The position numbers were made by a program, and so were the translations under genes. A DNA stretch of 46,722 bases, taken from Alphaproteobacteria bacterium. Lineage in GTDB: Bacteria > Pseudomonadota > Alphaproteobacteria > Caulobacterales > Caulobacteraceae. The DNA lies in assembly GCA_018820665.1 (NCBI GenBank), contig JAHJNW010000036.1:1-46722 (forward strand), in the 5' to 3' direction. Position 1 is the first letter of the stretch, and each line of letters opens with the position of its first letter. This document shows, one piece after another, positions 7,367 through 46,722 of the stretch. The notes under the pieces are model-generated. The model was not told the DNA's origin. It worked only from the letters and a program-made list of their open reading frames with translations, and did no database searches.

Positions 7367-7435
7367 GGTCGGCCGCGGACCTGTCGTCGCCCGCTCCCGG
7401 GTGACGCACCAAGACCATCTGAGACCGAGGCCCTG

Positions 7436-30795: not shown

Positions 30796-31344
30796 TCAGA
30801 AGCTTGGCGGCGTGCAGGCGCTGATGAGGCGGCAGGGCTCCGGACCGACGCAGCGAAAGCGGTGCGGCTTGTGGCTTTCGAAATAATAGGCGTCGCCGGG
30901 TCCGAGAATGCGGCGCTGGCCGTCCACCGTGACTTCCAGCCGGCCGCTTATGACGACTGCGCCCTCTTCGCCATCATGAACCAGCGGGACCCGGCCGGTA
31001 TCCGCGCCAGGTGCATAGGTCTCGCTGAGGATCTGCAGGCTGCGGCCGAAACGCCGTTCGCCGACCTGTAAATAGGAAATCGGTCCCTTGCCGATCTCGG
31101 TCAGTTCATTGGCCGAATAGAACACTCGCGACGGCGCATTCGGCTCGATGGCGAAAAATTCCGAGAGGCCGATCGGAATCCCGTCCAGAATTCGCTTCAG
31201 CGCGCCAATCGACGGGTTCATGCGGCCGGCCTCGATCAGGGAAATCGTCGAATTGGTGACGCCCGTCAGTTTGGCGAGATCCCGCTGCGACAATGCCTTC
31301 TGTTCCCGGACGAACCGCAGCCGGCTTCCAACGTCGACAGTCAT
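30796..31344 (-). CDS. XRE-cupin transcriptional regulator (PuuR-like), copy 1
   Basis: A 182-aa regulator with an N-terminal XRE helix-turn-helix (RLRFVREQKALSQRDLAKLT, GVTNSTISLIEAGRMNPSIG) and a C-terminal cupin (about 110-180: RVPLVHDGEEGAVVISGRLE, LGPGDAYYFESHKPHRFRCV). The build matches PuuR-type repressors that sense small amines or acids in the cupin pocket. The ATG at 31344 starts the helix-turn-helix at the usual distance; a longer frame to 31386 is less likely. It diverges from the aldehyde dehydrogenase operon with a 129-bp shared promoter region holding two inverted repeats. It is clearly paralogous to the regulator at 36107-36652: both end ISACTPP(S/T)F or a close variant and share the GRVPL and EEG cupin core. 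The two probably bind related sites or ligands. Confidence 0.87.
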   Translation of the reverse strand: MTVDVGSRLRFVREQKALSQRDLAKLTGVTNSTISLIEAGRMNPSIGALKRILDGIPIGLSEFFAIEPNAPSRVFYSANELTEIGKGPISYLQVGERRFGRSLQILSETYAPGADTGRVPLVHDGEEGAVVISGRLEVTVDGQRRILGPGDAYYFESHKPHRFRCVGPEPCRLISACTPPSF

Positions 31345-31369
31345 GAGGCGGCCCGGTGTTGTGAGTGTT

Positions 31370-31391
31370 GCAGATCGAACAAACAATCTGC
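31370..31391. promoter_or_regulatory. Inverted repeat GCAGAT-N10-ATCTGC in the regulator/ALDH divergent region
   Basis: Six-bp perfect arms separated by one helical turn lie 26 bp upstream of the XRE-cupin copy 1 start and 83 bp upstream of the aldehyde dehydrogenase. Spacing fits a dimeric helix-turn-helix regulator. It is a candidate autoregulatory operator of one of the two XRE-cupin proteins. Confidence 0.4.
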
Positions 31392-31473: not shown

Positions 31474-32922
31474 ATGAGTATCTCGCTGCCTGCCAAAGCC
31501 CTGCTGATCGGCGGCCGCTGGGTTTCCTCCAGCGGCGGAGATGTGCTGCCAGTCGAAGATCCCTCGACCGGCGCGGTGTTGGGTGAATTGGTTTCAGGCA
31601 CGGCCGAGGACGTCGATACAGCGGTCGCAGCGGCCCGGACCGCCCTCGACTCCGAGTGGGGCGGGTTGGCCGCGGCCGACCGCGGCCGGCTGCTGGGCCG
31701 GATCGGCCAGGCTGTGTTGAAGCAAACGGACCGGCTGGCCGAACTGGAGGCCCACGATGTCGGAAAGCCGCTGAGACAGGCGCGCGCAGACGTCCTCGCC
31801 CTGGCCCGCTATCTGGAATTCTATGGCGGCGCCGCCGACAAGATTCACGGCGAGACCATCCCGTTCCAGCCGGGCTACACCGTTTACACCCTGCGCGAGC
31901 CGCACGGCGTGACCGGCCACGTGATCCCCTGGAACTATCCGATGCAGATCATCGGCCGGTCGGTCGTCGCCGCTCTGGTGATGGGTAATGCGGCGGTGCT
32001 CAAGCCGGCCGAGCAGGCCTCGATGACGGCGCTGGCCTTTGCGCGCATCGCCATGGAGGCCGGCCTGCCCGCCGGGGCCCTGAACGTCGTCACCGGACGC
32101 GGCGATGTCGTCGGCGCGGCGTTGGCGGGGCATCCGGACGTCAATCATTTGTCGTTCACGGGCTCAACGCGGGTGGGTTCGACGATCCAGCAGGCCGCGG
32201 CCGCCAATGCCGTGCCGGTGACCCTGGAGTTGGGCGGGAAGTCGCCGCAAATCGTGTTCGACGACGCCGATATCGAGAAGGCGCTGCCGTTCCTCATCTC
32301 AGCCGGCATCCAGAACGCCGGCCAGACCTGCTCGGCCGGCTCGCGCATCCTCGTCCAGCGGGGGGCGTATCAGGCGGTCGTCGCGCGGCTGGTCGAGCGC
32401 TATCGCGGTCTGAGGGTCGGCCCGGCCATGTCTGACCTGGATCTCGGCCCGGTGATTTCGGCGCGGCAGAAGGCGATGGTGTCGGACTATCTGGACCTCG
32501 GCCGGGCCGACGGATTGATCGCCGCCGAAGGTGAACTGACGGCGGGCGCCCCAGAGGGCGGTCATTATGTCCGGCCGACCCTGTTCGTCGACGTACCGCC
32601 CGACCACCGCCTCGCGCAGGAGGAAATCTTCGGTCCCGCCGTAGTCGTCACCCCGTTTGAAACGGAAGACGAGGCCGTGGCGATCGCCAATGGCACGGAC
32701 TATGGCCTCGTCGCCGGGGTCTGGACGGCCGATGGCGCGCGTCAGATGCGTATGGCCCGGCGCCTGCGGGCCGGTCAGGTGTTTCTCAACAACTACGGGG
32801 CCGCGGGGGGCGTCGAGCTGCCGTTCGGCGGCGTCGGCCGCTCGGGTCACGGTCGCGAGAAAGGGTTCGAGGCCCTGTATGGCTTCTCCACCCTGAAGAC
32901 CGTCGCGGCCTGTCATGGATAA
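31474..32922 (+). CDS. NAD(P)-dependent aldehyde dehydrogenase
   Basis: A 482-aa classical aldehyde dehydrogenase. Key residues are visible: Asn153 in IPWNYPMQ (oxyanion), Glu252 in LELGGKSP (general base) and the catalytic Cys286 in NAGQTCSAGS, with the cofactor loop FTGSTRVGS near 228-236. It is not of the CoA-acylating type. It is the first gene of an operon with SDR, LeuB-like and M20 genes, nine bases before the SDR, and is divergent from an XRE-cupin regulator. The family covers betaine, gamma-aminobutyraldehyde and many other aldehydes. In the pathway proposed here it would oxidise 4-dehydropantoate to 3,3-dimethylmalate. A role in polyamine aldehyde oxidation is the main alternative, since PuuR-like regulators are linked to such enzymes. 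Confidence 0.9.
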   Translation: MSISLPAKALLIGGRWVSSSGGDVLPVEDPSTGAVLGELVSGTAEDVDTAVAAARTALDSEWGGLAAADRGRLLGRIGQAVLKQTDRLAELEAHDVGKPLRQARADVLALARYLEFYGGAADKIHGETIPFQPGYTVYTLREPHGVTGHVIPWNYPMQIIGRSVVAALVMGNAAVLKPAEQASMTALAFARIAMEAGLPAGALNVVTGRGDVVGAALAGHPDVNHLSFTGSTRVGSTIQQAAAANAVPVTLELGGKSPQIVFDDADIEKALPFLISAGIQNAGQTCSAGSRILVQRGAYQAVVARLVERYRGLRVGPAMSDLDLGPVISARQKAMVSDYLDLGRADGLIAAEGELTAGAPEGGHYVRPTLFVDVPPDHRLAQEEIFGPAVVVTPFETEDEAVAIANGTDYGLVAGVWTADGARQMRMARRLRAGQVFLNNYGAAGGVELPFGGVGRSGHGREKGFEALYGFSTLKTVAACHG

Positions 32923-32931
32923 GGGGCGCGC

Positions 32932-33678
32932 ATGACGCTGAACGGCAAGGTTGCGATCGTCACGGGCGGCGCGTCCGGTTTTGGCGAGGGCATCGTCCGG
33001 CGCTTCATCTCCGAGGGCGCGCGCGTGGTGACGGCCGACCGCAACGCGGCGGCGGCCCGGGCGCTGGAGGCCGATCTGGGCCCCGCCTGCCGGGCGATCG
33101 AGGGGGACATATCCGATCCCGCTGATGTCGAGCGCCTGTTTGCCGACACCGTAGCGGCGTTCGGGGGCGTGGACATCCTGGTGAACAATGCGGGCATCGG
33201 CCACAAGCCCCAACCGCTGGAGACCCTGCCGCAGGACGACTTCGATCGCCTGTTCGCGGTCAACGCCCGGTCGATCTATCTGACCGCCCGGCACGCCGTG
33301 CCGCTGATGAAGGCCGCGGGCGGCGGGGCCATTCTGAACATCGCCTCGACCGGCGGCGTCAGTCCGCGCCCGAACCTGACCTGGTACAATGCGTCCAAGG
33401 GCTGGGTCATCACCGCCACGCGCGCCATGGCGGTCGAGCTGGCGCCGTCGCAGATCCGCGTCAATGCGCTGAACCCGGTGGCGGGCGAGACGCCGCTGCT
33501 GAAGACCTTCATGGGCGACGACACCCCTGAGGTGCGGGCCAAATTCCTGGCCTCGATTCCCCTGGGCCGGTTCTCGACCCCGGCGGACATGGGGGCCGCC
33601 GCCGCCTTCCTGTGTTCGGATGACGCGTCGATGATCACGGGCGTGGCGCTGGAGGTGGACGGTGGTCGCTGTATCTGA
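32932..33678 (+). CDS. Short-chain dehydrogenase/reductase, NAD-type
   Basis: A 248-aa classical SDR. The cofactor motif TGGASGFGEG (11-20) is followed by Asp36 at the end of the second strand (VVTADRN), which favours NAD over NADP and hence an oxidative role. NNAG is present (86-89), and the catalytic set is Ser139, Tyr152 and Lys156 (WYNASKG). The C-terminus (ITGVALEVDGGRCI) is standard. The LeuB-like gene starts 17 bp inside its 3' end, indicating translational coupling and a shared pathway. In the pantoate scheme it would be the D-pantoate 4-dehydrogenase that makes 4-dehydropantoate, consistent with an NAD-preferring alcohol dehydrogenase. The sequence alone does not give the substrate. 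Confidence 0.9.
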   Translation: MTLNGKVAIVTGGASGFGEGIVRRFISEGARVVTADRNAAAARALEADLGPACRAIEGDISDPADVERLFADTVAAFGGVDILVNNAGIGHKPQPLETLPQDDFDRLFAVNARSIYLTARHAVPLMKAAGGGAILNIASTGGVSPRPNLTWYNASKGWVITATRAMAVELAPSQIRVNALNPVAGETPLLKTFMGDDTPEVRAKFLASIPLGRFSTPADMGAAAAFLCSDDASMITGVALEVDGGRCI

Positions 33679-34798
33679 ACGGACGTTCCGCCTGCTGGTC
33701 CTGCCGGGCGACGGCATCGGGCCCGAGATCATCGCCCAGACCCTGAGGGTCGTCGAACATTTCGGAGCCGATCTGGGAATCGACTTCCAGATCACCCAGT
33801 CCCTGGTCGGCGGCGCCTCGATCGATGCCCACGATACGCCGATCACCGAGGCCGTCGTGGAACAGGCGCTGGCCAGCGACGCCATCCTGTTCGGGGCCGT
33901 GGGCGGACCGCGCTGGGACCAGCGCCCACGCGCCACGCGGCCGGAGGTCGGCATCCTGCGGCTGCGCCAGAGCCTCGACCTGTTCGCCAATCTCCGCCCG
34001 GCCGTCTGTTATCCCGGCTTGCTGGACGCCTCAGCCCTGCGGCCCGAGCTGATCGAGGGACTGGATATCCTGATCGTGCGGGAGGCGACCGCCGGGGTCT
34101 ATTTCGGCCTGCCGCGCGGACAGGCGGTCGACGCCGATGGCGGCCGCCGCGCCTATGACAGCCAGACCTATACCGAGGCCGAGATCGCGCGCGCCTGTCA
34201 TGTCGCGTTCCAGATCGCCCGCACGCGCCAGTCGCGCGTCTGTTCGGTCGACAAGGCCAATGTGATGGAGACCGGAGCCCTGTGGCGCGCGGTGGCGACC
34301 GGGGTTTCGGCGGCCTATCCCGACGTCGAACTCAGCCATATGTACGCCGACAACTGCGCCATGCAACTGGTGCGTCAGCCGCGCCAGTTCGATGTCATCG
34401 TCACCGACAACCTGTTCGGCGACATCCTGTCGGACGCCGCCGCGGCGCTGACGGGGTCGCTGGGACTGCTGCCCTCGGCGTCGCTTTCGGCGCCGACCGC
34501 CAGCGGTCGGCCGCGCGCCCTGTACGAGCCGATTCACGGCTCGGCCCCGGACATCGCCGGTCAGGGGGTGGCCAATCCGATCGGCGCGATCCTGTCGTTC
34601 GGTCTATGCCTTCGCCACTCGCTGGACCTTCCCGAGGCTGCCGACCGGCTGGAGCGTGCGGTGCGCGCAATCCTGGCCGACGGGATTCGAACCCGGGACA
34701 TCGCCGCAGGGGCGCCGTCCGTGTCGTGCGCCGCCATGACCGACGCGCTGCTGGCGGCGCTTCAAGCTTCTTCCTCCCCTGAACCGGCGAGCGCCTGA
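33662..34798 (+). CDS. LeuB-like beta-decarboxylating dehydrogenase (3,3-dimethylmalate dehydrogenase candidate)
   Basis: A 378-aa member of the isopropylmalate/isocitrate/tartrate dehydrogenase family, which oxidises a 2-hydroxyacid and decarboxylates it. All catalytic residues of LeuB have counterparts: Arg102, Arg112, Arg140, Tyr147, Lys198, Asp230, Asp254 and Asp258. The substrate-pocket helix reads RPEVGILRLRQSLDLFANLR, keeping the Glu-x-Gly-hydrophobic-Leu pattern that holds the alkyl group in isopropylmalate dehydrogenases, so a branched malate is expected. The GTG start lies inside the SDR gene. No leuC, leuD or leuA is nearby, so leucine synthesis is unlikely. A branched malate made by the neighbouring SDR and ALDH, namely 3,3-dimethylmalate, would give 2-oxoisovalerate. 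Tartrate or D-malate dehydrogenase are alternatives. Confidence 0.88.
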   Translation: MVAVSERTFRLLVLPGDGIGPEIIAQTLRVVEHFGADLGIDFQITQSLVGGASIDAHDTPITEAVVEQALASDAILFGAVGGPRWDQRPRATRPEVGILRLRQSLDLFANLRPAVCYPGLLDASALRPELIEGLDILIVREATAGVYFGLPRGQAVDADGGRRAYDSQTYTEAEIARACHVAFQIARTRQSRVCSVDKANVMETGALWRAVATGVSAAYPDVELSHMYADNCAMQLVRQPRQFDVIVTDNLFGDILSDAAAALTGSLGLLPSASLSAPTASGRPRALYEPIHGSAPDIAGQGVANPIGAILSFGLCLRHSLDLPEAADRLERAVRAILADGIRTRDIAAGAPSVSCAAMTDALLAALQASSSPEPASA

Positions 34799-34799
34799 C

Positions 34800-36080
34800 A
34801 TGACCGACATCCTTGCCCCCGTCATGGACCGGATCGAAGCGCGGACGGACGACCTCGTCGCCCTGACACGCGACCTGATCCGCTTTCCCACCATCAATCC
34901 GCCGGGCGACGCTTACCGGCCCTGCGCCGAATATATCGGCGACCGGTTGAAGGCGCGCGGGTTCAAGGTCGAATATATCCGCGCCCTGGGCGCGCCGGGC
35001 GATACGGACCAGTATCCGCGCATCAATGTCGTGGCCCGTTGGGAAGGCTCCCGGCCGGGGCCCTGCGTCCATTTCAACAGCCATATCGATGTCGTCGAGA
35101 CCGGCTCCGGCTGGACCGTCGATCCGTTTGAGGGGCTGGTGAAGGACGGGCGGGTCTACGGCCGCGGGGCGTGCGACATGAAGGGGGGGCTGGCGTCCTC
35201 TATCATCGCCGTCGAGGCCCTGATCGATTCCGGCCTCGACCTGCCCGGCGCCCTGGAAATTTCCGGCACCGTCGACGAGGAGTCGGGCGGCTATGGCGGC
35301 GTCGCCTATCTGGCCGAGCGCGGCTGGTTTTCGAAACCCCGGGTCGATCACGTCATCATTCCGGAACCGCTCAACGTCGACCGGGTCTGTATCGGCCACC
35401 GCGGCGTGTGGTGGGCCGAGATCGAGACCAGGGGCCGGATCGCCCACGGCTCGATGCCGTTCCTCGGCGACTCGGCCATCCGGCACATGAATGCGGTGAT
35501 GCAGACCTTCGAGGACAAGCTGTATCCGGCGATGGCCGCGCGCCATTCAGACATGCCGGTGGTGCCCGAGGGCGCGCGGCAATCGACGCTGAACATCAAC
35601 TCGATCCATGGGGGCCAGAGCGAGGAGTTCGAGGGGCTGCCGGCCCCCTGCGTCGCGGACTCGTCGCGCATGATCATCGACCGCCGTTTTCTGATCGAGG
35701 AGCAGCTGGACGACGTGAAGGGCGAGGTCGTGGCCCTGCTGGACGGCCTGGTCACCAGCCGTCCGGAGTTCGCCTACGAGATCCGTGACCTGTTCCAGGT
35801 GGCGCCCAGCATGGCGGACCGCGACGGTCCGGTGGCCAGCGCGACGGCCCAGGCCGTCGAGCGCGTGCTGGGTCGCAAGGCCCAGTTCGTCTGTTCGCCC
35901 GGCACCTATGACCAGAAACACATCGACCGGATCGGCAAGCTGAAGGACTGCATCGCCTACGGGCCGGGCATTCTGGATCTGGCGCATCAGCCCGACGAAT
36001 GGGTGGGGGTGGACGACATGGTCTCGGCCGCCAAGGTCATGGCCCGCGCGGCGTGGTCGTTGCTGCACGGCGTCCGCTGA
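34800..36080 (+). CDS. M20-family amidohydrolase/deacylase (ArgE/DapE-like)
   Basis: A 426-aa cytoplasmic di-zinc hydrolase of the M20/ArgE/DapE family. Metal and catalytic positions are intact: His95 and Asp97 (FNSHIDVV), bridging Asp126 (GRGACDMKGG), catalytic Glu160 with Glu161 (VDEESGG), the EPLN region, and the last ligand His in DLAHQPDEW. The dimerisation/lid domain lies between about 185 and 320. It has no signal peptide. It starts one base after the LeuB-like stop codon and is the fourth gene of the operon. Family members cleave N-acyl amino acids or dipeptides. In this context it could split pantothenate into pantoate and beta-alanine, or cleave a beta-alanyl dipeptide. Known pantothenase was described with an acyl-enzyme mechanism, which a metallo-enzyme would not give, so the assignment is open. 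Confidence 0.88.
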   Translation: MTDILAPVMDRIEARTDDLVALTRDLIRFPTINPPGDAYRPCAEYIGDRLKARGFKVEYIRALGAPGDTDQYPRINVVARWEGSRPGPCVHFNSHIDVVETGSGWTVDPFEGLVKDGRVYGRGACDMKGGLASSIIAVEALIDSGLDLPGALEISGTVDEESGGYGGVAYLAERGWFSKPRVDHVIIPEPLNVDRVCIGHRGVWWAEIETRGRIAHGSMPFLGDSAIRHMNAVMQTFEDKLYPAMAARHSDMPVVPEGARQSTLNINSIHGGQSEEFEGLPAPCVADSSRMIIDRRFLIEEQLDDVKGEVVALLDGLVTSRPEFAYEIRDLFQVAPSMADRDGPVASATAQAVERVLGRKAQFVCSPGTYDQKHIDRIGKLKDCIAYGPGILDLAHQPDEWVGVDDMVSAAKVMARAAWSLLHGVR

Positions 36081-36106
36081 CGAAGGCGATAAAAAGGGGA
36101 TAGCGG

Positions 36107-36652
36107 ATGGACAACATCGTCGGCCCCAAACTGCGGGTGCTTCGCGCCAAGCTCGGCCTCAGCCAGCGCGCCCTGGCGAGGAAGGCGGGGGTGCCGTCCA
36201 GCACCGTCTCGCTGATTGAAAGCGGCCGGACCAGCCCGTCGGTGGGCTCCCTGAAGCGTCTGCTGGATGCGGCGGGATTGTCGCTGGGCGAGTTCTTCAG
36301 CCATGATTTCGAACAGCCCGGCCAGGTGTTCTTCCGCAGCGATGAACTGACCGCCATCTCCCAGGGTGACGTCGCCTACCGGCAGTTGGGCGGCGGCCAG
36401 ACCTCCAGCCTGCAGATCCTGCACGAGACCTATCAGCCGGGCGCCGACAGCGGTCGCGTGCCGCTTTCCCACGAGGGAGAGGAGGGCGGACTGGTGGTCG
36501 AGGGGCGGCTGGAGGTCACGGTCGGCGACCAGACCCGCGTCCTCAAGGCCGGTGACGGCTATCTGTTTTCCAGCGTTCTGCCGCACCGTTTTCGCAATAC
36601 CGGGACATCACCGTGCGTGATTATCAGCGCCTGCACGCCGCCCACTTTCTGA
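36107..36652 (+). CDS. XRE-cupin transcriptional regulator (PuuR-like), copy 2
   Basis: A 181-aa paralogue of the regulator at 30796-31344, with helix-turn-helix (RVLRAKLGLSQRALARKAGV, PSSTVSLIESGRTSPSVGSL) and C-terminal cupin (GRVPLSHEGEEGGLVVEGRL, KAGDGYLFSSVLPHRFRN). It follows the M20 gene by 26 bp with an AAGGGGA ribosome site and so is probably transcribed with the catabolic operon, while copy 1 is divergent from it. A 172-bp gap separates it from the aminotransferase, leaving room for a second promoter. Having two related regulators in one locus suggests that two pathway intermediates are sensed, or that the two halves of the pathway are controlled separately. Confidence 0.87.
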   Translation: MDNIVGPKLRVLRAKLGLSQRALARKAGVPSSTVSLIESGRTSPSVGSLKRLLDAAGLSLGEFFSHDFEQPGQVFFRSDELTAISQGDVAYRQLGGGQTSSLQILHETYQPGADSGRVPLSHEGEEGGLVVEGRLEVTVGDQTRVLKAGDGYLFSSVLPHRFRNTGTSPCVIISACTPPTF

Positions 36653-36824
36653 AACGGACGAACCTGCGCTACGCCGTCCGCACCCGGAATGATGCAAATG
36701 ATCGATATTCTGCGCACTGCCCGATAATCCTGCACCTTTACAATCTCTTGTGCGCCGAAAGAAACAGGCTTGTCGGCGTCTTCAGACGAGCGGCCTAATC
36801 CATCAACGACGATGAAGAGAACCC
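36653..36824 (+). promoter_or_regulatory. Probable promoter region of the aminotransferase-receptor unit
   Basis: This 172-bp gap is AT-richer than its surroundings. It contains a near-palindrome AATGATCGATATT around 36700-36712, flanked by TGCA and CTGC, a possible site for an XRE-cupin protein. GATCGA also appears in the divergent region at 31373. No convincing -35/-10 pair could be fixed by eye. The region ends in an AAGAGA ribosome site before the ATG at 36825. Confidence 0.3.
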
Positions 36825-38141
<1,317 letters not shown>

Positions 38142-38161
38142 GCCAAGCTACGGGGGATAAC

Positions 38162-40381
38162 ATGCGTAAGACCTATCTGGGGGCATCCATCGCAGTTCTG
38201 GCGTTGGCGACGACGGCGGCGGGGGCGGCCGTGGCGCAGACAGCGCCCGGAGGGCAGGATCCCGAGCGCGCCGCGGTGCTGGAGGAAGTGATCGTCACGG
38301 CGCAGCGCCGCGAACAGGCGGCCCAGGACGTGGGCATCGCGCTGAGCGTGCTGTCAGGCGAGGAGCTGACCAAACTGGGCATCACCAACGTCAACCAGTT
38401 GCAGAACGCCACGCCCAACCTCGAGATCGAGCCGGCGTTCGGCGGCGGCGCGGCCCAGTTCCGCCTGCGGGGGGTCGGCTTCCAGGACTATGCCTCGAAC
38501 AACTCGCCGACGGTGGGCGTCTATGTGAACGAGGTCGCCTATCCGGTGCCCGTCATGACCCAGGGGCTGATCTTCGATATCGCCCGGGTCGAGGTCCTCA
38601 GAGGGCCGCAGGGCACCCTCTACGGCCGCAACACCACGGGCGGGGCGATCAGCTTCGTAACCAACCGGCCCTCGGAAGCGCCCAGCGTGGGCATTATGGC
38701 GGAGTACGCCAGCTTCGACGCCGTGAAGGTCGAAGGCTTTGTCTCCGGACCGCTGACGGACACTCTGAGCGGCCGCCTGGCGGCCTCGACACAGCAGGGC
38801 GGCGGGTTTCAATACAATCGCGATACGGGCGAGTCCCTCGGCGACGCGGACCGGACCGGCATTCGCGGCCTCCTGACGCTTGACCCCTCTGACGACCTGT
38901 CGTTCACGCTCGATGTCCACGGCGGGATCGACAAGTCCGAGAACGAGGGCCTGTACCTGCTCAGCCCGCTGACCACCCGCGGCGGGGCCGCCGGCAGCGT
39001 GGTGATCCCGGCTGACGTCGATCGCCGCGCGACCGGCTGGGGCCTGTCGCCCCGCTTCGCTGCGGAGACGGGGCGCGATCTGGACGACAAGCCCGGCCGG
39101 GACAACTCGTCCTGGGGCACGTCCCTCAATGCGAGCCGCTATTTCGGCGACCTCAGCCTGACCAGCATCACCAGCTATGAAACGCTGGATCGCAGCGAAT
39201 ACGGGGACTGGGACGCCAGTTCGTCGGTCGAGGCGGACACCTTCTTCGAAAGCGACGTGAAGGTCGTCTCGCAGGAAGTCCGCCTGGCGTCGGACAATGA
39301 TGGTGCGCTCAGCTGGGTCGCTGGCGTCTATTATTCCAAGCAGGAGCTTGATGAGCGCTACTCGTCAGACTTCATCGATATCTACGGGACCTATGGCCAG
39401 GTCGCCTACGCCCAGGAAGTGGAGTCGGTCAGCGTGTTCGGCCAGGCCGAGTACCAGCTCAGCGACGCATTCAAGGTCCTCGGCGGTCTTCGGTACGAGG
39501 AGGAGACGCGGGACCTGAACGGGTTCGGCACCGCCTTCGGCGGCGCCACCGCCCTGCCGCCGACCTCGGTCACCACGGAAATGACTCCGCTGACCGGAAA
39601 ACTGGCCCTCGAATACAAGCCCGACGATAACCTGCTGATCTATGGCTCGTTCAGCCGGGGAGCCAAGTCCGGGGGCTTCACCACCTACAACACCGGCAAC
39701 AGCAGCGGCATCCAGCCATTCAATCCCGAAATCCTGCTCGCCTACGAGGTCGGCTTCAAGGCGGATCCGTCGCCGACGGTTCAGATCAACGGCGCGGTCT
39801 ATTTCTACGACTACACCGACCAGCAGGTGCTGTCGGCGGTCTATGGCGTCAACGGGCCGGTCGGACGCTTCACCAATGTGCCGTCGTCGGAAATCTACGG
39901 CGCCGAGCTGGAGGGGACCTTCCGCCCCGTCGACGGGCTGAGAATCAGCCAGTCCATCAGCTACAAGCACGGCGAATACGTCGAGTTCTTCGATCTCGAT
40001 GTCCCCGCCTCCCGCGCCGCCGGCCTGGCCATCTATGTGGACAAGTCGGGCGACGAAATTCCCTTCCCCGCGGTCAGCTACGGCGGATCGATCGCCTACG
40101 ACTGGGCGGTCCAGAACTATGCCCTGACTGCCGACTTCAACTACAGCTACCGTGATGACTATCCGTCATGGCTGGGCGAAAAATACGATGTTCCCGCCTA
40201 TTGGCTGGCCCACGCCAGCGTCACCCTCTCTCCCTCGACCGGCCCATGGACAGCCACCGCCTTTGTGCGAAACCTGTTCGATGAAGAGTATGACCTGACG
40301 CGCAACTTCTTCACCAGCGCCGACATCGCCCAGCCCGGCCGACCCCGCACCTACGGCGTTCGCCTGAGCTACCAGTACTGA
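38162..40381 (+). CDS. TonB-dependent receptor of the beta-alanine/amide locus
   Basis: A 739-aa receptor, clearly shorter than the other three here. It has a signal peptide (1-25, ending GAAVAQ), a TonB-box-like EEVIVTAQRRE, the plug (LTKLGITNVNQLQNATPNLE, RLRGVGFQDYASNNSPTVGV, RVEVLRGPQGTLYGRNTTGG) and a 22-strand-type barrel ending YGVRLSYQY with terminal Tyr. The ribosome site GGGGG lies nine bases before the ATG. It follows the aminotransferase by 20 bp and ends just before an intrinsic terminator. Co-transcription with a beta-alanine aminotransferase suggests that its ligand is the amide or peptide whose beta-alanine is later released. Confidence 0.9.
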   Translation: MRKTYLGASIAVLALATTAAGAAVAQTAPGGQDPERAAVLEEVIVTAQRREQAAQDVGIALSVLSGEELTKLGITNVNQLQNATPNLEIEPAFGGGAAQFRLRGVGFQDYASNNSPTVGVYVNEVAYPVPVMTQGLIFDIARVEVLRGPQGTLYGRNTTGGAISFVTNRPSEAPSVGIMAEYASFDAVKVEGFVSGPLTDTLSGRLAASTQQGGGFQYNRDTGESLGDADRTGIRGLLTLDPSDDLSFTLDVHGGIDKSENEGLYLLSPLTTRGGAAGSVVIPADVDRRATGWGLSPRFAAETGRDLDDKPGRDNSSWGTSLNASRYFGDLSLTSITSYETLDRSEYGDWDASSSVEADTFFESDVKVVSQEVRLASDNDGALSWVAGVYYSKQELDERYSSDFIDIYGTYGQVAYAQEVESVSVFGQAEYQLSDAFKVLGGLRYEEETRDLNGFGTAFGGATALPPTSVTTEMTPLTGKLALEYKPDDNLLIYGSFSRGAKSGGFTTYNTGNSSGIQPFNPEILLAYEVGFKADPSPTVQINGAVYFYDYTDQQVLSAVYGVNGPVGRFTNVPSSEIYGAELEGTFRPVDGLRISQSISYKHGEYVEFFDLDVPASRAAGLAIYVDKSGDEIPFPAVSYGGSIAYDWAVQNYALTADFNYSYRDDYPSWLGEKYDVPAYWLAHASVTLSPSTGPWTATAFVRNLFDEEYDLTRNFFTSADIAQPGRPRTYGVRLSYQY

Positions 40382-40385
40382 GGAC

Positions 40386-40412
40386 ATGCGGGCCGGGTCG
40401 CCCGCATCTTTT
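40386..40412 (+). terminator. Intrinsic terminator after the receptor gene
   Basis: ATGCGGGC, a 6-nt loop and GCCCGCAT form a perfect 8-bp stem, followed at once by CTTTTCC. It begins four bases after the receptor stop. It would end the aminotransferase-receptor transcript or attenuate read-through into the importer operon, whose first ATG lies 24 bp beyond. Confidence 0.7.
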
Positions 40413-40435
40413 CCGCCGGATTATGAAAGTCAGGG

Positions 40436-43024
40436 ATGATCCCGACCGCCCTATCGTCCCGCCAGCGTCCGTTCAGGGGAGCGATCGTCGTCATGATGAT
40501 CGCTCTTCTGGCGGCCGTGGTGGGCGTCGTCGGCGGGCCGTCGCCGGCGACGGCCCAGGATCGGCTGGTTCTGGGCCTGCCGCTGGAGCCGCCCAACCTT
40601 GACCCCGCCAGCGGCGCCGCCGCCGCCGTGGACGAGGTCGTCTATGGCAATGTGTTCGAGGGGCTGACGCGGATCACCCAGACCGGCGCCGTGGTTCCGG
40701 GCCTGGCCGACTCCTGGGACGTCTCGGCCGACGGCCTGATCTATGTCTTTCACCTGCGCCCGGACGTGACTTTCCACGACGGCGCGACGTTCGATGCGGC
40801 CGACGTCAAATTCTCGCTGGACCGCATCACCGCCGACGGCTCGACCAACGCCCAGAAGGCGCTGTTCGAGCCGATCCGCCGGGTGGACGTCATCGACCCG
40901 CTGACGGTGCGGATCACGCTGGACCGCCCCGTCAGCGCCCTGACCACCCTGCTGGGTTGGGGCGACGCGGTCATCGTGGCCCCCGAAAGCGCCGCCACCA
41001 ACGCCTCCCGACCGGTCGGCACGGGGCCGTTCCGGTTCGCCGGCTGGCGGCGCGGCGAATCCCTGACGCTGGTCCGTTACGCCGGCTATTGGGGACCGCC
41101 GGCGCGGCTGCAGACGGTGGTGTTCCGCTTCATCAGCGACCCGACCGCCGCCTTCGCCGCCATGAGCGCCGGCGACATCGACGCCTTCCCCAACTATCCC
41201 TCGCCCGAGAACGTCGCCCAGTTCCAGCGGGACCCGCGGTTCCGCGTCATGATCGGGGCCTCGGAGGGCAAGGTCGTCCTGGGCATCAACAACCGCAGCC
41301 CGCCGCTGAACGACGTGCGGGTGCGCCGGGCGATCTCCCATGCGATCGACCGGCCGGCGATCATCCAGGGCGCCATGTTCGGCTATGGCCAGCCAATCGG
41401 CAGCCACTTTTCGCGCCTGGCCCCCGGCTATGTCGATCTGACCGGCCTGTATCCCCACGACGTCGTCCGCGCCCGCCAGTTGCTGGCCGAGGCCGGCTAC
41501 CCCGACGGGATCGACCTGACGCTGCGCCTGCCGCCCCGCCCTTATGCGCGCAGGGGCGGGGAGGTGCTCGCGGCCCAGCTGGCCGAGGCGGGAATCCGGG
41601 TCCGGATCGAGAATCTGGAATGGGCCCAATGGCTCGATCAGGTGTTCAAACGCCACCAGTTCGACCTGACCATCGTCGAACACGTCGAGCCGATGGACTA
41701 CGACATCTACGCCCGCGACGACTACTATTTCGGCTATCGAAGCGACGCCTTTGAATCCCGCCTGGCGCTGCTCAACACCGCCACCGACGAGCCGACGCGG
41801 CTGCGACTTCTGGGCGAGCTGCAACGCCGGATCGCCGACGACGCCGTCAACGGGTTCCTGTTCCAGTCCTCGCGCATCGGCATCTGGAAGGCCGGTCTGA
41901 ACGGCCTGTGGATCAATGCGCCAATCCCCGCCAACGTCGTCAGCGGCGCCTGGTTCACCGGCTCGACCCCCGGCGGCCCGGCCGAGGCCACGGCGGCGGA
42001 CAGCCGCCTTCCCTGGGGCTGGATCTTCGCCCTGCTGGGTCTGGCGACGGCGGTCTATGTCGTGCGCCAGTTCGGGGCGGCCTGGCTGCTGCGGCGGCTG
42101 GGGGGCCACGCCCTGACCCTGCTGGCGGCGACGGCCGTGATCTTCCTGTTGCTGCAGGTCGTGCCCGGCGATCCCGCCAGCTATATGATGGGCCTGAACG
42201 CCAGCCCGGACTCCGTGGCCGCCCTTCGCGAGCAGATGGGCCTGGGCGGGTCAGCTCCGGAACGCTATTTCGGCTGGCTGGGCGACCTCTTCCGCGGCCA
42301 GTTCGGCGTCAGCTACACCTATCAGGTGCCCGTCGGAGGCCTGATCGCCGACCGGTTCGCGGTCTCCGGACCGCTGGCGCTGATGGCCACGGTGCTGTCG
42401 CTGATCGTCGCCTTCCCGATCGGCGTCATCGCCGCCAGTCACCGCAATTCGGTGCTCGACTCCGGCCTGGTCGGCGTGACCCAGATCGGCATCGCCCTGC
42501 CGAACTTCTGGCTGGCCATGCTGCTGATCCTGTTCTTCTCGATCAATCTCGGCTGGTTCTCCGCCGGCGGCTTTCCCGGATGGGAGAACGGCTTCTGGCC
42601 TGCCTTCCAGTCGCTTGTCTTGCCGGCGGTGGCGCTGGCCGCGCCCCAGGCCGCCATCCTCGCGCGGGTGCTGCGCAGCGCCCTGCTGGACACGCTGAAC
42701 CAGGACTATATCCGTACGGCGCGCGCCAAGGGCCTGAGCGTGAACCAGGCTGTGTGGCGGCACGCGCTGCGCAATGCGCTGATACCGGTGCTGACGATTC
42801 TGGGTCTGCAGTTCCCCTTCCTGCTGGCCGGCGGCATCATCATCGAGAATGTGTTCGCCCTGCCCGGGCTGGGGCGGCTGGTGTTCCAGGCCATCACCCA
42901 GCGTGACCTGATCGTCGTCCAGGGCGTGGTCGTGGTGCTGGTCTTCGCCGTCGTCCTCGTCAGCTTCCTCATCGACCTCGCCTATGTCCTGGTCGACCCC
43001 CGTCTCCGGGAGCGTCGCGGATGA
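40436..43024 (+). CDS. Dpp/Opp-type importer: substrate-binding protein fused to DppB permease
   Basis: An 862-aa fusion of two normally separate ABC-importer parts. Residues 1-41 are a leader (RRs before IVVMMIALLAAVVG, then PATAQ). Residues 42-510 form a family-5 (DppA/OppA) binding protein (LGLPLEPPNLDPASGAAAAV, GLADSWDVSADGLIYVFHLR, VRVRRAISHAIDRPAI). A Gly/Ala/Pro linker (510-525) leads to one extra membrane helix (about 527-545, WGWIFALLGLATAVYVVRQF), then a complete DppB permease (548-862) with the GDPAS start and the EAA loop (DYIRTARAKGLS...RHALRNALIP). The extra helix returns the chain to the cytoplasm so that the permease keeps normal topology. The start at 40436 is preferred over 40493, which would lack positive leader residues. 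The reading frame is uninterrupted, so this is a real fusion. Confidence 0.9.
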   Translation: MIPTALSSRQRPFRGAIVVMMIALLAAVVGVVGGPSPATAQDRLVLGLPLEPPNLDPASGAAAAVDEVVYGNVFEGLTRITQTGAVVPGLADSWDVSADGLIYVFHLRPDVTFHDGATFDAADVKFSLDRITADGSTNAQKALFEPIRRVDVIDPLTVRITLDRPVSALTTLLGWGDAVIVAPESAATNASRPVGTGPFRFAGWRRGESLTLVRYAGYWGPPARLQTVVFRFISDPTAAFAAMSAGDIDAFPNYPSPENVAQFQRDPRFRVMIGASEGKVVLGINNRSPPLNDVRVRRAISHAIDRPAIIQGAMFGYGQPIGSHFSRLAPGYVDLTGLYPHDVVRARQLLAEAGYPDGIDLTLRLPPRPYARRGGEVLAAQLAEAGIRVRIENLEWAQWLDQVFKRHQFDLTIVEHVEPMDYDIYARDDYYFGYRSDAFESRLALLNTATDEPTRLRLLGELQRRIADDAVNGFLFQSSRIGIWKAGLNGLWINAPIPANVVSGAWFTGSTPGGPAEATAADSRLPWGWIFALLGLATAVYVVRQFGAAWLLRRLGGHALTLLAATAVIFLLLQVVPGDPASYMMGLNASPDSVAALREQMGLGGSAPERYFGWLGDLFRGQFGVSYTYQVPVGGLIADRFAVSGPLALMATVLSLIVAFPIGVIAASHRNSVLDSGLVGVTQIGIALPNFWLAMLLILFFSINLGWFSAGGFPGWENGFWPAFQSLVLPAVALAAPQAAILARVLRSALLDTLNQDYIRTARAKGLSVNQAVWRHALRNALIPVLTILGLQFPFLLAGGIIIENVFALPGLGRLVFQAITQRDLIVVQGVVVVLVFAVVLVSFLIDLAYVLVDPRLRERRG

Positions 43025-43872
43025 CGGAGGCGACGTCGCAAAGGATCGCCCCGCGCGCCCGCATCCCCGTGGCGCTGGTGATCGGCGGGCTGCTGACGGC
43101 CGGGGTGATCGCCATGGCGCTGGTGTCCTTCGTCTGGACGCCCTTCGACGTCACCGCCATCGACATCGCCCGACGGCTGAGGCCGCCGTCCGCGGTCCAT
43201 CCGTTCGGGACCGATCCGTTCGGACGCGACGTCCTGTCCATGATCATGGTCGGCGCCCGGAACTCGCTGGCCGTCGCCCTGGTCGCGGTCGGCATCGGCC
43301 TGGGCGTCGGCGCGCCGCTGGGCCTGCTGGCCGCTGCGCGAGGCGGCTGGATCGACGAGACGGTGATGCGGACCAACGACCTGATCTTCGCCTTTCCGGC
43401 CCTGCTGGTCGCCGTGATGATCACGGCGGTGGCGGGACCCGGCGCGCTGAACGCGATCATCGCCATCGGCGTCTTCAACATCCCCGTCTTCGCCCGGGTC
43501 ACGCGAGGGGCCGCCCTGTCGCTGTGGACGCGCGAGTTCATCCTCGCCGCGCGAACCGCGGGCAAGTCGAAGACCGAAATCTCGCTCCAGCACATCCTGC
43601 CCAATCTGCTCAACCTGCTGATCGTCCAGGCGGCCATCCAGTTCGCCATGGGAATCGTGGCCGAGGCGGGCCTGTCCTATGTCGGTCTCGGCGCCCAGCC
43701 GCCGATGCCGAGCTGGGGCCGGATGCTGGCCGAGGCCCAGACCCTGATCGGCTTCGCCCCGTGGCTGGCCATCATGCCGGGTCTGGCCATTGTGACGATC
43801 GTCCTGGGGCTCAGCCTCATGGGCGACGGCCTGCGCGATCTGCTCGATCCGCGTCTGCGGCGGGAGCGCTGA
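43021..43872 (+). CDS. DppC-type permease of the peptide-type ABC importer
   Basis: A 283-aa inner-membrane permease of the DppC/OppC family: an N-terminal helix (VALVIGGLLTAGVIAMALVS), the conserved periplasmic PFGTDPFGRDVLSMIMVGAR, and the EAA loop (ILAARTAGKSKTEISLQHIL). The C-terminus (GLSLMGDGLRDLLDPRLRR) is typical. It overlaps the end of the fusion gene by four bases (ATGA) and is one base from the ATPase gene, so the three proteins are made together. It would pair with the DppB part of the fusion to form the channel. Confidence 0.93.
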   Translation: MTEATSQRIAPRARIPVALVIGGLLTAGVIAMALVSFVWTPFDVTAIDIARRLRPPSAVHPFGTDPFGRDVLSMIMVGARNSLAVALVAVGIGLGVGAPLGLLAAARGGWIDETVMRTNDLIFAFPALLVAVMITAVAGPGALNAIIAIGVFNIPVFARVTRGAALSLWTREFILAARTAGKSKTEISLQHILPNLLNLLIVQAAIQFAMGIVAEAGLSYVGLGAQPPMPSWGRMLAEAQTLIGFAPWLAIMPGLAIVTIVLGLSLMGDGLRDLLDPRLRRER

Positions 43873-43873
43873 G

Positions 43874-45520
43874 ATGCCGGGTCTCGAAATCCATGACCTC
43901 AGCGTCGCCATCGGCGAAACCCGGCTTCTGAAGTCGGTGTCGCTGACCGTCGCGCCGGGCGAGATTCTCGGCCTGGTCGGCGAATCCGGCTCGGGCAAGT
44001 CGATGACGGCCCTCGCCGTGCTGGGTCTTCTGCCGCCGCAGGCGCGCATGACCGGCACAATCACCCTCGACGGCGCCGAGCTCTCGAACGCCTCTGACGC
44101 CGTCCTGCGCCGCGTGCGCGGCAGCCAGATCGGCATCGTCTTCCAGGAGCCGATGACGGCGCTGAACCCGCTGATGACCATCGGCGACCAGGTTGCTGAG
44201 ACGATCCGCATCCATGGCCGGGGAGGGAGGGCCGAGGCCCGGGCGGCGGCGCGGTCGCTGCTGGACCGGGTCGGTCTTCCGGCCGATCGCTTCCCGCTGG
44301 ATCGCTATCCCCACGAGCTGTCGGGCGGGCAGCGCCAGCGCGTCGCCATCGCCATCGCCATCGCCCTGACGCCCCGCCTGCTGATCGCCGATGAGGCGAC
44401 CACGGCGCTGGACGTGACGACCCAGGCGCAGATCCTCGTCCTGCTGAAGCGGCTGGTGCAGGAAGACGGCATCGGCCTCATCCTGATCACCCACGATCTC
44501 GCCGTCGTCGCCGAAACCGCGGACCGCGTCGCGGTGATGAAGGACGGCGAGGTCGTAGAGGTCGCCGCGGCGTCGCGGATCGCCGGCGGGATGCAGCATG
44601 ACTACAGCCGGCGCCTTCTGGCGGCCGCCACCCATACGCCCGACCGGCGCCCCCGGGTGCAGACAGATGCGCCGGCGGTTCTCAGCGTCGAGGGCGTGGT
44701 GCGCGAATACCCCGGCCCTCCGCGACTGTTCGGCAAACGCCCGGTCTTGCGGGCCGTTGACGATGTCAGTTTCTCGATCCAGCCTGGCGAAAGCGTGGGG
44801 CTGGTCGGCGAGTCCGGCTGCGGCAAGTCCACCCTGCTGCGCACCATCCTGGCCCTCGATGCGCCCCAGGCCGGGCGGGTGCTGGTCGGCGGCGAGGACA
44901 TCGGCCGGGCGCGGGGCGCCGATCTGCTGGCCCTGCGTCGCCGCATCCAGATGGTGTTCCAGGACCCCTCCGGCAGTTTCGACCCGCGCTGGCGCGTGCA
45001 TCAGGTGATCGGAGAGAATTTCAACCTGTCCCCGGACCGGCCCGACCCCGTTGCGGCCCGCCGCCGGATTGACGCCATGCTGGAACAGGTCGGACTGACC
45101 CCGGCGGATGGCGACAAGTTCGCGCATGAGTTCTCGGGCGGACAGCGTCAGCGCATCGCCATCGCCCGCGCCCTGATCACCGAGCCGTCCATCATCGTTC
45201 TGGACGAGGCGGTGTCAGCGCTGGATGTCTCCATCCGGACGCAGATCCTCGACCTGCTGGCCGATCTGTCGGCGCGCCTGTCGCTGGCCTATCTGTTCGT
45301 CACCCACGACCTCGCCGTCGTCCGCGCGGTGACCGACCGGCTGCTGGTGATGCAGGCCGGCGTCATCGTCGAGTCCGGTCCGACCGCCGCGGTCTTCGCC
45401 GCCCCGACCCATGAGTATACCCGCCGGCTGCTCGCCGCGACGCCGGACCTGCATCGCAATATCGCGGCGCTGGGCCGGCCAGCCCCCCTGTCGAACATTA
45501 CTGAGGAGACGACGCCATGA
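43874..45520 (+). CDS. Fused DppD-DppF twin ATPase of the importer
   Basis: A 548-aa protein carrying two complete nucleotide-binding domains. The first (1-255) has Walker A GESGSGKS (about 36), signature [17 protein letters not shown] and Walker [13 protein letters not shown]. The second (about 268-548) has GESGCGKST (about 311), [15 protein letters not shown] and [12 protein letters not shown]. Both have the LITHDLAVV or FVTHDLAVV switch histidine. DppD and DppF are usually separate; DppD-DppF fusions such as GsiA and YejF are known. With the binding-protein/permease fusion, the whole importer needs only three polypeptides. The next gene, the S58 hydrolase, starts in its stop codon. Confidence 0.93.
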
Positions 45521-46638
45521 ACCGCAGAACCATCCTGGGATCGCTCGGTCTGATCGGCGGCCTCGCCGCTGTCACCCCCGCCCTGGCCCGCGCGGCCCGC
45601 TATCAGGACAGCGGCGGCGGTCGCCCCGGCCCGCTGAACCTGATCACCGACGTCGCCGGCCTGAAGGTGGGCCAGGCGCAGGACGTCGAGGCGCGATCCG
45701 GCGTGACCGTCATCCTCGCCGATACGCCGGCCACGGCGGCGGTCGACGTGCGCGGCGGCGGACCGGCCAGCCGCGAGACCGACGTGCTGCGGCCCGAAAA
45801 CCTGGTGCAGCAGGTCGACGCCATCATCCTGTCCGGCGGCTCAGTCTATGGTCTGGGATCGGGCGATGCGGTTACGGCCTGGCTCGGCGCCCAGGGCCGC
45901 GGCTTCGGCTTCGGCCCGAAGATCGAGGGCATCCCCTTCTCGCCGATCGTGCCCACCGCCAGCCTCTATGACCTCGCCAACGGCGGCGACAAGAACTGGG
46001 GCATCGACCCGCCCTACCGGACCATGGCCATACAGGCGGCCGAGAGCGTCTCGACCCGGTTCGCGCTCGGCACGGCGGGCGCCGGCTACGGCGCCAAGGC
46101 CGGGTCGCTGAAGGGCGGCCTCGGTTCGGCCTCGGCGGTTATGAGCAATGGCGCCACGGTCGGGGCCATCGTCGCCGTCAACAGCGCCGGCTCGGTGGTG
46201 GCGCCGGGCGGCAAGACCTTCTGGGCCGCGCCCTATGAGATCGATGGCGAGTTCGGCGGCCTCGGCAGCAGCGGCCTGAGCGCGTCCGGCGACGAATGGG
46301 GCGCCGCCCGACCCAATCCGCGCGCCGGGGAAAACACCACCATCGCCCTCGTCGCCACCGACGCGGCCCTGACGCGGGTCGAGTGCCAGCGCGTCGCCAT
46401 CATGGCCCAGGACGGCATGGCGCGGGCGATCCGCCCCTCCCACGCGCCCTTCGACGGCGACATCGTCTTCTGCATGTCGACGGAAAAGCGGCCGCTGCCC
46501 GAGGGCGCTCCGCGCGCCTTCCTGGTCGCCCAGATCGGCGCCATGGCGGCCGATGTCCTGGCCCGCGCCATCGCCCGGGGCGTCCATGACGCGACCAACT
46601 GGCCGGGCGTGACCGGCCAGGCCTGGAGCGATCTCTGA
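45517..46638 (+). CDS. S58 (DmpA/ThnT/NylC-type) N-terminal-nucleophile hydrolase, Tat-exported
   Basis: A 373-aa member of the S58/DmpA superfamily, which self-cleaves to create an N-terminal Ser or Thr nucleophile. A leader ([20 protein letters not shown]) has a twin-arginine pattern, so a periplasmic location is likely. The family hallmarks are seen: ITDVAGLKVGQAQD, DVRGGGPASRETDVL, ILSGGSVYGL, and the cleavage region GENTTIALVATDA, which predicts scission at Asn273-Thr274. A Thr nucleophile resembles the pantetheine hydrolase ThnT and nylon hydrolase NylC, while DmpA and BapA use Ser. Relatives cleave beta-alanyl and other beta-peptide bonds, or pantetheine. The start overlaps the twin-ATPase stop (ATGA) and has a GAGGAG ribosome site. 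Linked to beta-alanine catabolism, it probably hydrolyses an amide bond next to beta-alanine. Confidence 0.85.
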   Translation: MNRRTILGSLGLIGGLAAVTPALARAARYQDSGGGRPGPLNLITDVAGLKVGQAQDVEARSGVTVILADTPATAAVDVRGGGPASRETDVLRPENLVQQVDAIILSGGSVYGLGSGDAVTAWLGAQGRGFGFGPKIEGIPFSPIVPTASLYDLANGGDKNWGIDPPYRTMAIQAAESVSTRFALGTAGAGYGAKAGSLKGGLGSASAVMSNGATVGAIVAVNSAGSVVAPGGKTFWAAPYEIDGEFGGLGSSGLSASGDEWGAARPNPRAGENTTIALVATDAALTRVECQRVAIMAQDGMARAIRPSHAPFDGDIVFCMSTEKRPLPEGAPRAFLVAQIGAMAADVLARAIARGVHDATNWPGVTGQAWSDL

Positions 46639-46690
46639 TCGCTCCCTCGCGCCGTCCCCTCCCTTAACGACCGAGAGAAAACGCACAGTC

Positions 46691-46722
46691 ATGCGCGACA
46701 TCAACCACTTCATCGACGGCGC
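46691..46722 (+). CDS. mmsA: Probable (methyl)malonate-semialdehyde dehydrogenase, first codons only
   Basis: Ten codons before the window edge read MRDINHFIDG. CoA-acylating methylmalonate-semialdehyde dehydrogenases typically begin with a similar stretch (xxxIxHFIDG). Beta-alanine:pyruvate aminotransferases often occur with such a gene, because MmsA converts malonate semialdehyde to acetyl-CoA and CO2. The identification rests on a very short stretch plus context. Confidence 0.5.
   Translation, partial: MRDINHFIDG

Follow-up and report, generated by a model that had tools for sequence, protein, structure and literature searches.

What do the genes at the end of this Caulobacteraceae contig take up and degrade, and do they form one pathway? 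The contig (JAHJNW010000036.1, assembly GCA_018820665.1; contig C16 of the window's genome, G000) was analysed over its whole length of 46,722 nucleotides, referred to here as the window, which ends with the contig at position 46722. It comes from a draft genome of 2.96 Mb (88% complete), and the nearest named relatives of its proteins are found in Brevundimonas. A preliminary description of positions 31474..46722 had read the genes as a possible complete uptake and degradation system for pantothenate, pantetheine or another beta-alanyl amide. Based on gene content, gene order and comparison with related genomes, we consider it likely that the cluster serves to scavenge and break down vitamin B5 amides: pantetheine and, probably, phosphopantetheine and pantothenate as well.

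Gene content of the locus

Profile searches recovered all of the genes named in the preliminary description, from the aldehyde dehydrogenase to the S58 hydrolase, and its account of the gene set is confirmed, although it had omitted two XRE-cupin regulators. The cluster consists of the following features (scores in bits are followed by the cut-off of the model):

30796..31386, minus strand: XRE-cupin regulator 1, PuuR-like (PF01381 and PF07883), divergent from the ALDH operon
31474..32922, plus strand: aldehyde dehydrogenase, ALDH (PF00171); proposed to convert 4-dehydropantoate to 3,3-dimethylmalate (EC 1.2.1.33)
32932..33678, plus strand: short-chain dehydrogenase, SDR (NF005559, 331 bits, cut-off 215); proposed pantoate 4-dehydrogenase (EC 1.1.1.106)
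33662..34798, plus strand: LeuB-like beta-decarboxylating dehydrogenase (PF00180, TIGR00169); proposed to convert 3,3-dimethylmalate to 2-oxoisovalerate and CO2 (EC 1.1.1.84)
34800..36080, plus strand: M20 amidohydrolase (NF009558, 750 bits, cut-off 428); proposed pantothenase, giving pantoate and beta-alanine
36107..36652, plus strand: XRE-cupin regulator 2, PuuR-like (PF01381 and PF07883)
36825..38141, plus strand: class-III omega-aminotransferase AptA (NF052567, 694 bits, cut-off 500); proposed to convert beta-alanine to malonate semialdehyde
38162..40381, plus strand: TonB-dependent receptor for outer-membrane uptake (PF00593 and PF07715)
40436..43024, plus strand: Dpp/Opp-type substrate-binding protein fused to the first permease (PF00496 at 86-416; PF19300 and PF00528 within 550-858)
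43021..43872, plus strand: second permease, DppC-like (PF00528)
43874..45520, plus strand: fused double ATPase, DppD-DppF-like (NF008453, 464 bits, cut-off 408)
45517..46638, plus strand: exported S58 hydrolase, ThnT-like (PF03576, 188 bits); proposed to convert pantetheine to pantothenate and cysteamine
46691..46722, plus strand: start of an mmsA-like gene (ten codons, MRDINHFIDG), cut by the contig end; proposed to convert malonate semialdehyde to acetyl-coenzyme A (CoA)

The importer, of the Dpp/Opp/Gsi type, spans positions 40436-45520. The last ten codons had been called a probable mmsA start; they match the beginning (MRDIDHFIDG) of a full MmsA-type protein standing at the same place after S58 in the same-genus genome G015 (TIGR01722, 666 bits, cut-off 448.5).

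Conservation of the cluster

A match to the LeuB-like protein at 73% identity or more was found in six of the 37 same-genus genomes sampled, the window's own included; a seventh match is a fragment. This sample and further searches yielded a total of 15 same-genus genomes carrying the cluster, again counting the window's own. The order ALDH-SDR-LeuB-like-M20-XRE-cupin is constant in all 14 others, with AptA next, before or after a receptor (in G007, AptA is split at the contig end), and the ALDH copies are 71-80% identical. The importer is present in 12 of the 14; the G007 contig and the G953 stretch stop before its place. Six stretches extend beyond DppDF (G001, G002, G015, G031, G236, and G246), and in each of them the cluster ends with S58. 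Among other genomes of the same family, G904 and G861 carry ALDH, SDR, the LeuB-like gene (66-67%), AptA, M20, and the importer within 20 kb, and G789 follows the window's gene order throughout its available contig. These three are the only genomes outside the genus, among the samples searched, in which the LeuB-like gene was seen. The two halves of the cluster, the ALDH operon and the genes from AptA onward, belong together as had been proposed, their order being kept in the 14 same-genus genomes as far as the stretches reach.

Loss of pantothenate synthesis genes

The presence of the cluster is linked to the state of panB and panC, the genes of vitamin B5 synthesis. No match to PanB or PanC was found in 14 of the 15 same-genus genomes with the cluster. 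The fifteenth carrier, the window's genome, has an intact panC; its panB homology is fragmented over three frames within a shortened region flanked by intact genes, and the gene is therefore broken or misassembled. The pieces lie on contig C72 (locus L270, about 8981-9612), and either decay or an assembly fault could have produced them. Among same-genus genomes without the cluster, 17 of the 19 tested have both genes. Loss or breakage thus stands at 15/15 with the cluster against 2/19 without it (Fisher p = 1.5e-7, relatedness ignored; p = 1.6e-6 with the window's panB counted as present). The 19 were drawn from 30 same-genus genomes lacking a LeuB-like match; those left out are mostly less complete, but also include G027, which is 99% complete, and G023, with its cluster fragment, stood outside the test. 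Both panB and panC are absent from G904 and G861. Loss or breakage is seen in 17 of the 18 genomes with a LeuB-type cluster, which supports the earlier reading of the substrate as pantothenate-related. A type III pantothenate kinase was kept in all 30 genomes tested.

In an rpoB tree the cluster and pan traits change together in separate parts. The carriers G002 and G236, which have no pan genes, fall among G008 and G011, which have pan genes but no cluster; G015 is placed next to G004/G016, and the window's genome next to G032/G014/G012. One clade holds eleven carriers, all without pan genes, and also contains G024 and G026. Only 144 residues of RpoB were available for the window's genome; G003 gave no rpoB match, and G034, which has two rpoB copies, was left out of the parsimony/Fisher analysis. 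Automatic parsimony found four branches with both changes, three with a cluster change only, and two with a pan change only; some changes were placed as a gain of panBC with loss of the cluster, a placement not taken as direction.

B. diminuta requires pantothenate for growth, and a LeuB-like protein under that species name matches the window's at 73%. Strain ATCC 11568 is tabulated without PanB, PanC, PanD, and PanE in the available part of a survey that lists PanB and PanC for three other Brevundimonas (PMC7142369).

The pan genes are also found beside M20. In G745 (L243) a single strand carries AptA-panB-panC-M20-binding protein::permease-DppC-DppDF (PF02548 and PF02569 for PanB and PanC). 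In G577 (L182) panB-panC is oriented toward M20, and on a plasmid of Roseobacter litoralis (L236:13350-15040) panC-panB lies past M20 in the same layout. The proteins of G577 and R. litoralis are 82% (PanB), 70% (PanC), and 79% (M20) identical. Since these two loci share a layout and are relatives, the three genomes represent two independent arrangements of panB-panC with M20, and the association supports a link of the cluster to vitamin B5. A plasmid of R. ponti (L260) and L236 have a common layout around M20, SDR, cupin, and S58; R. ponti has the binding protein of the importer at the place of panC-panB in L236.

An M20 core across Alphaproteobacteria

M20 matches with 63-70% identity and E values of 1e-150 or lower came from 19 genomes beyond the window's own, among 385 genomes of the class. 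The neighbours of 41 M20 loci (19 from the class, 14 from same-family genomes other than Brevundimonas, three of these with the LeuB-like gene, and eight from plasmids, for which 8 of 20 matches were fetched) were compared with those of 74 control loci around LeuB genes. The controls came from a contig scan with the LeuB-like alignment A1, in which, among the matches listed, LeuB is at 54-60% identity; control loci shorter than 15 kb (9 kb for L196-L206) were omitted. The importer was found near 21 of the 41 M20 genes and near none of the 74 controls (p 5e-12), and SDR near 16 and none, respectively (p 7e-9). The corresponding counts were 13/41 against 1/74 for S58, 9/41 against 0/74 for ALDH, and 5/41 against 1/74 for AptA. 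The loci are partly related and the thresholds were fixed once the maps had been seen; the p-values are therefore guides. On a Qingshengfaniella plasmid the order M20-binding protein-permease-permease-ATPase-ALDH-SDR-S58 occupies a single strand. A core of M20, Dpp-type importer, and S58, with SDR and ALDH in some loci, recurs across Alphaproteobacteria. No consistent stand-in for the LeuB-like gene was seen when the extra genes near M20 in the class-sample loci were read through.

In four same-family loci a TTC38-like protein of 454-479 residues (TPR-type, by eye) adjoins M20 (L241:4906-6345, L245:11819-13213, L249:8132-9496, and L253:10723-12096); the single copy searched against Pfam matched only ANAPC3, and weakly.

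Enzymes of the proposed pathway

The LeuB-like protein scores 451 bits with the LeuB model TIGR00169 (cut-off 353.2) and 215 bits with the tartrate/D-malate dehydrogenase (TtuC/DmlA) model TIGR02089, below its cut-off of 470.4. The cluster copies form one clade in the tree (support 0.976), separate from other LeuB; of its 33 rows, two are the window protein and 14 are database proteins of unknown context. In the preliminary description, grouping of the protein with leucine-biosynthetic or tartrate enzymes, together with inactivity on dimethylmalate, would have counted against the pathway. Its own clade and the tartrate score show no such grouping, but by profile it is LeuB, and it is best described as a distinct clade, not a separate family. 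The substrate is likely a 3-alkylmalate, because the residues that we take to be catalytic and substrate-binding in LeuB are invariant in alignment A1, with pocket residues unchanged or conservatively replaced; isopropyl and gem-dimethyl substrates are not separable by sequence.

Neither leuC nor leuD occurs in the cluster; as the preliminary description had implied, the gene stands apart from them, and a leuC-leuD-leuB set was located elsewhere in the same genome, the names leuD and leuB coming from inspection by eye and from sequence matches. G015 has no LeuB match other than the cluster's LeuB-like gene. In that genome two TonB-dependent receptors flank a leuC-leuD-like pair together with genes resembling HMG-CoA lyase and CoA transferase (L310:8507-12720; names by eye), a setting that looks catabolic. 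For the ALDH, no cut-off was reached among the 25 NCBIfam families listed of 44.

The best match of S58 in the Protein Data Bank is ThnT (3tm1, E 3e-59; residues 29-360 of 373 aligned, the NTT stretch included), so that the relation to ThnT suggested earlier stands; the next kind of solved S58 protein is a nylon hydrolase (E 2e-40). ThnT shortens pantetheinyl groups to cysteamine. We take the N-terminus of the window's S58, read by eye, as Tat-like. M20 has relatives among dipeptidases (beta-Ala-His dipeptidase 3dlj, E 3.6e-8), and the best match of AptA is a beta-alanine-pyruvate transaminase (4b98, E 3e-126).

Uptake, phosphatases, and regulation

The fusion of substrate-binding protein and permease is a single reading frame of 869-918 amino acids in G001, G002, G015, and G031. 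It is also one frame in the same-family loci L243, L247, and L248, but is called as two separate genes in most of the class loci in which it occurs. The two-domain ATPase passes the NF008453 dipeptide ATP-binding cassette (ABC) ATPase model and the NikD and NikE models, and falls below the cut-offs of YejF and GsiA. Of the 14 other same-genus clusters, 11 carry the TonB-dependent receptor at 71-81% identity; in G246, G839, and G876 it is represented only by a 44-45% homologue. Two genes across regulator 1 from the ALDH operon may be associated parts of the system:

25992..27557, minus strand: PhoD-like phosphatase (PF09423); possible phosphate removal from phosphopantetheine
27560..30358, minus strand: TonB-dependent receptor beside PhoD (TIGR01782, 593 bits, cut-off 310)

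A PhoD homologue (46-49%) and a second receptor lie inside the cluster in nine of the 13 same-genus relatives that could be assessed. The seven of these nine other than G187 and G246 were also examined for a PAP2-type phosphatase gene, and it was recognised in all seven (in four by search, in G001 by Pfam, in G015 and G031 by likeness). Given these phosphatases, a phosphorylated substrate such as phosphopantetheine would suit the system.

Both regulators score below the cut-off of NF007408, the model of PuuR, which regulates putrescine catabolism (127.5 bits for regulator 1 and 133.8 for regulator 2, cut-off 211). Regulator 1 keeps its window position in just two of the relatives mapped, G015 and G789. 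A dyad, TGMTCA-N6-TGAKCA, precedes half 1 in 9/16 genomes and half 2 in 9/16 when one mismatch is allowed (2% of random stretches), and in 11/16 and 16/16 when two are allowed (8% of random stretches); it was picked post hoc on inspection, and the counted genomes are related. In G904 and G861, outside this count, no good match to the dyad was seen. The XRE-cupin regulators probably control both halves.

A proposed route for vitamin B5 amides

The interpretation of the cluster as an uptake and degradation pathway for B5 amides is supported, whereas we infer each reaction, the reaction order, and the transported substrate; pantothenate, pantetheine, and phosphopantetheine are not separable here. 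TonB-dependent receptors would bring the compound across the outer membrane, and exported phosphatases (PhoD, PAP2), where present, would remove phosphate. The exported ThnT-like S58 would cleave pantetheine to pantothenate and cysteamine, and either the product or a pantetheine disulfide would enter the cell by the Dpp-type importer. M20 could then split pantothenate into pantoate and beta-alanine. SDR followed by ALDH would oxidise pantoate at C4 to 3,3-dimethylmalate, which the LeuB-like enzyme would convert to 2-oxoisovalerate, while AptA and then MmsA would take beta-alanine to acetyl-CoA. The reverse, biosynthetic direction was rejected because reduction of a free acid by ALDH and amide synthesis by M20 are unfavourable on general grounds.

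The enzyme pathway of pantothenate degradation has been known since the 1960s. Goodhue, Magee, Snell, and Airas reportedly described it in Pseudomonas as proceeding by pantothenase, pantoate 4-dehydrogenase, dehydropantoate dehydrogenase, and dimethylmalate dehydrogenase, and the enzyme types of the cluster match these steps one to one. The Pseudomonas activities are not known to have been assigned to genes, whereas here an alphaproteobacterial gene cluster joins the corresponding enzyme types with an exported hydrolase and with uptake across both membranes. No gene cluster for pantothenate catabolism was found among the matches listed in a search of open-licence literature, subscription journals being mostly outside its scope. 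LeuB, the 3-isopropylmalate dehydrogenase, resembles the cluster protein in profile and in presumed active-site residues; the cluster copies differ in forming a separate clade, in an operon without leuC/leuD, with a leuCDB set elsewhere in the genome. ThnT, from thienamycin biosynthesis, is the nearest solved relative of S58 and shares its NTT stretch, but is described in the available text of one paper as trimming the pantetheinyl group on a carbapenem (PMC6097109), whereas the window's S58 is exported and lies in a catabolic cluster. The pantothenase protein is called unknown in the accessible part of a 2023 paper, which also reports, from labelling, that Alphaproteobacteria and Actinobacteria build CoA from beta-alanine cleaved out of supplied pantothenate (PMC10393543). 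According to excerpts of two further papers, extracellular pantetheine forms mixed disulfides that are imported by peptide/cystine transporters, Opt1 in yeast (PMC12406275) and TcyJKLMN in B. subtilis (PMC11487621), and a Dpp/Gsi-type importer is therefore plausible. The role of Opt1 and TcyJKLMN is in CoA salvage; the importer of the present cluster is encoded together with hydrolases and oxidative enzymes. The excerpt of the first of these papers called uptake of pantetheine-type compounds unresolved in 2025 (PMC12406275).

We give roughly even odds, and slightly less, to a broader proposal, namely that this set comprises the bacterial genes of B5 catabolism. M20 would be the alphaproteobacterial pantothenase, and SDR, ALDH, and the LeuB-like gene would be the first genes for pantoate 4-dehydrogenase, dehydropantoate dehydrogenase, and dimethylmalate dehydrogenase. 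The complete set would accompany repeated loss of panB-panC, the vitamin being burned and no longer made, and partial modules with panB-panC beside M20 would perform the cleave-and-rebuild salvage known from isotope labelling. If this is true, a long-known enzyme pathway gains named, testable genes, the cleave-and-rebuild handling of pantothenate in Alphaproteobacteria is accounted for, vitamin catabolism is tied to the loss of vitamin synthesis among close species, and a way is indicated by which pantetheine-type compounds may cross the outer and inner membranes.

Several observations weigh against a B5-amide pathway or its broader form. G024 and G026 have neither pan gene and no cluster, and G789 has the LeuB-type operon together with full-length matches to both panB and panC. 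Across the class, M20 and panC are not associated: panC is clear in 9/19 genomes with M20 and 32/53 without it (one weak fragment match scored absent), and in 5/8 further same-family genomes with M20. The link to pan-gene loss thus holds for clusters with the LeuB-like gene and not for partial M20 modules without it. The proximity of panB and panC to M20 (3/41 loci against 0/74 controls, p 0.043) includes two loci from relatives, and M20 of the same family also occurs alone, in Azospirillum, Ideonella, and Paracoccus. No S58 was found within the stretches fetched for G904 and G861, and in G236 the SDR match is divided between two frames. In the window itself the dyad stands only before half 2 (two mismatches), half 1 having four mismatches of 12. 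The LeuB profile is passed and the presumed active-site residues are kept, and the substrate of the LeuB-like protein is therefore unreadable from its sequence. The pantothenase of P. fluorescens works by an acyl-enzyme mechanism, unlike an M20 metalloenzyme.

Alternative explanations

Catabolism of a beta-alanyl amide, such as a carnosine-type peptide, is unlikely, though the most probable of three alternatives. M20 and S58 would free beta-alanine for AptA and MmsA, or for PanC where panB-panC is present, and SDR, ALDH, and the LeuB-like enzyme would act on other compounds. DmpA-type S58 enzymes are known for acting on N-terminal beta-alanyl peptides, M20 is related to dipeptidases (as 3dlj indicates), and AptA-panB-panC-M20 share one strand in L243. 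PanD is also missing in most Alphaproteobacteria surveyed, with 37 putative cases in 204 genomes in the part of the survey available (PMC7142369). Feeding PanC would be useless in the 14 same-genus carriers without panC, however, and the three oxidative enzymes in the M20 operon would idle, which weakens this explanation; SDR near M20 outside the genus is equally unexplained, and S58 is much nearer to ThnT than to nylon hydrolase.

Slightly less probable again is that a B5 auxotroph merely obtains pantothenate for CoA from pantetheine or phosphopantetheine, with the other enzymes handling side products such as cysteamine and not pantoate. Carriers without panB/panC, or with panB broken, retain pantothenate kinase, and receptors, importer, and phosphatases suit acquisition. 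Oxidation and decarboxylation of pantoate fit SDR, ALDH, and the LeuB-like protein step by step, though, with no clear role for them in cysteamine use, and AptA scores as the beta-alanine type. One amidase would also be enough for such salvage, yet the window has two different ones, as do all six same-genus stretches that extend to S58.

It is very improbable that the LeuB-like gene encodes a surplus enzyme of leucine biosynthesis and that the two operons adjoin by accident: the LeuB profile and the invariant presumed active-site residues would fit, but leuC-leuD-leuB lies elsewhere in the window's genome, G015 keeps the cluster gene as its only LeuB match while its leuC-leuD-like pair sits in an HMG-CoA lyase-like/CoA-transferase-like setting, and neither in the same-genus relatives mapped nor in G904 and G861 are the halves separated.

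Other genes in the window

Beside PhoD, positions 25178-25978 encode a 266-residue protein with no Pfam or NCBIfam match at E 0.001. Positions 4571-10569 probably hold a type I secretion set, in which an M10 peptidase of the serralysin type, with RTX repeats, precedes an ABC exporter and a protein of the HlyD family.

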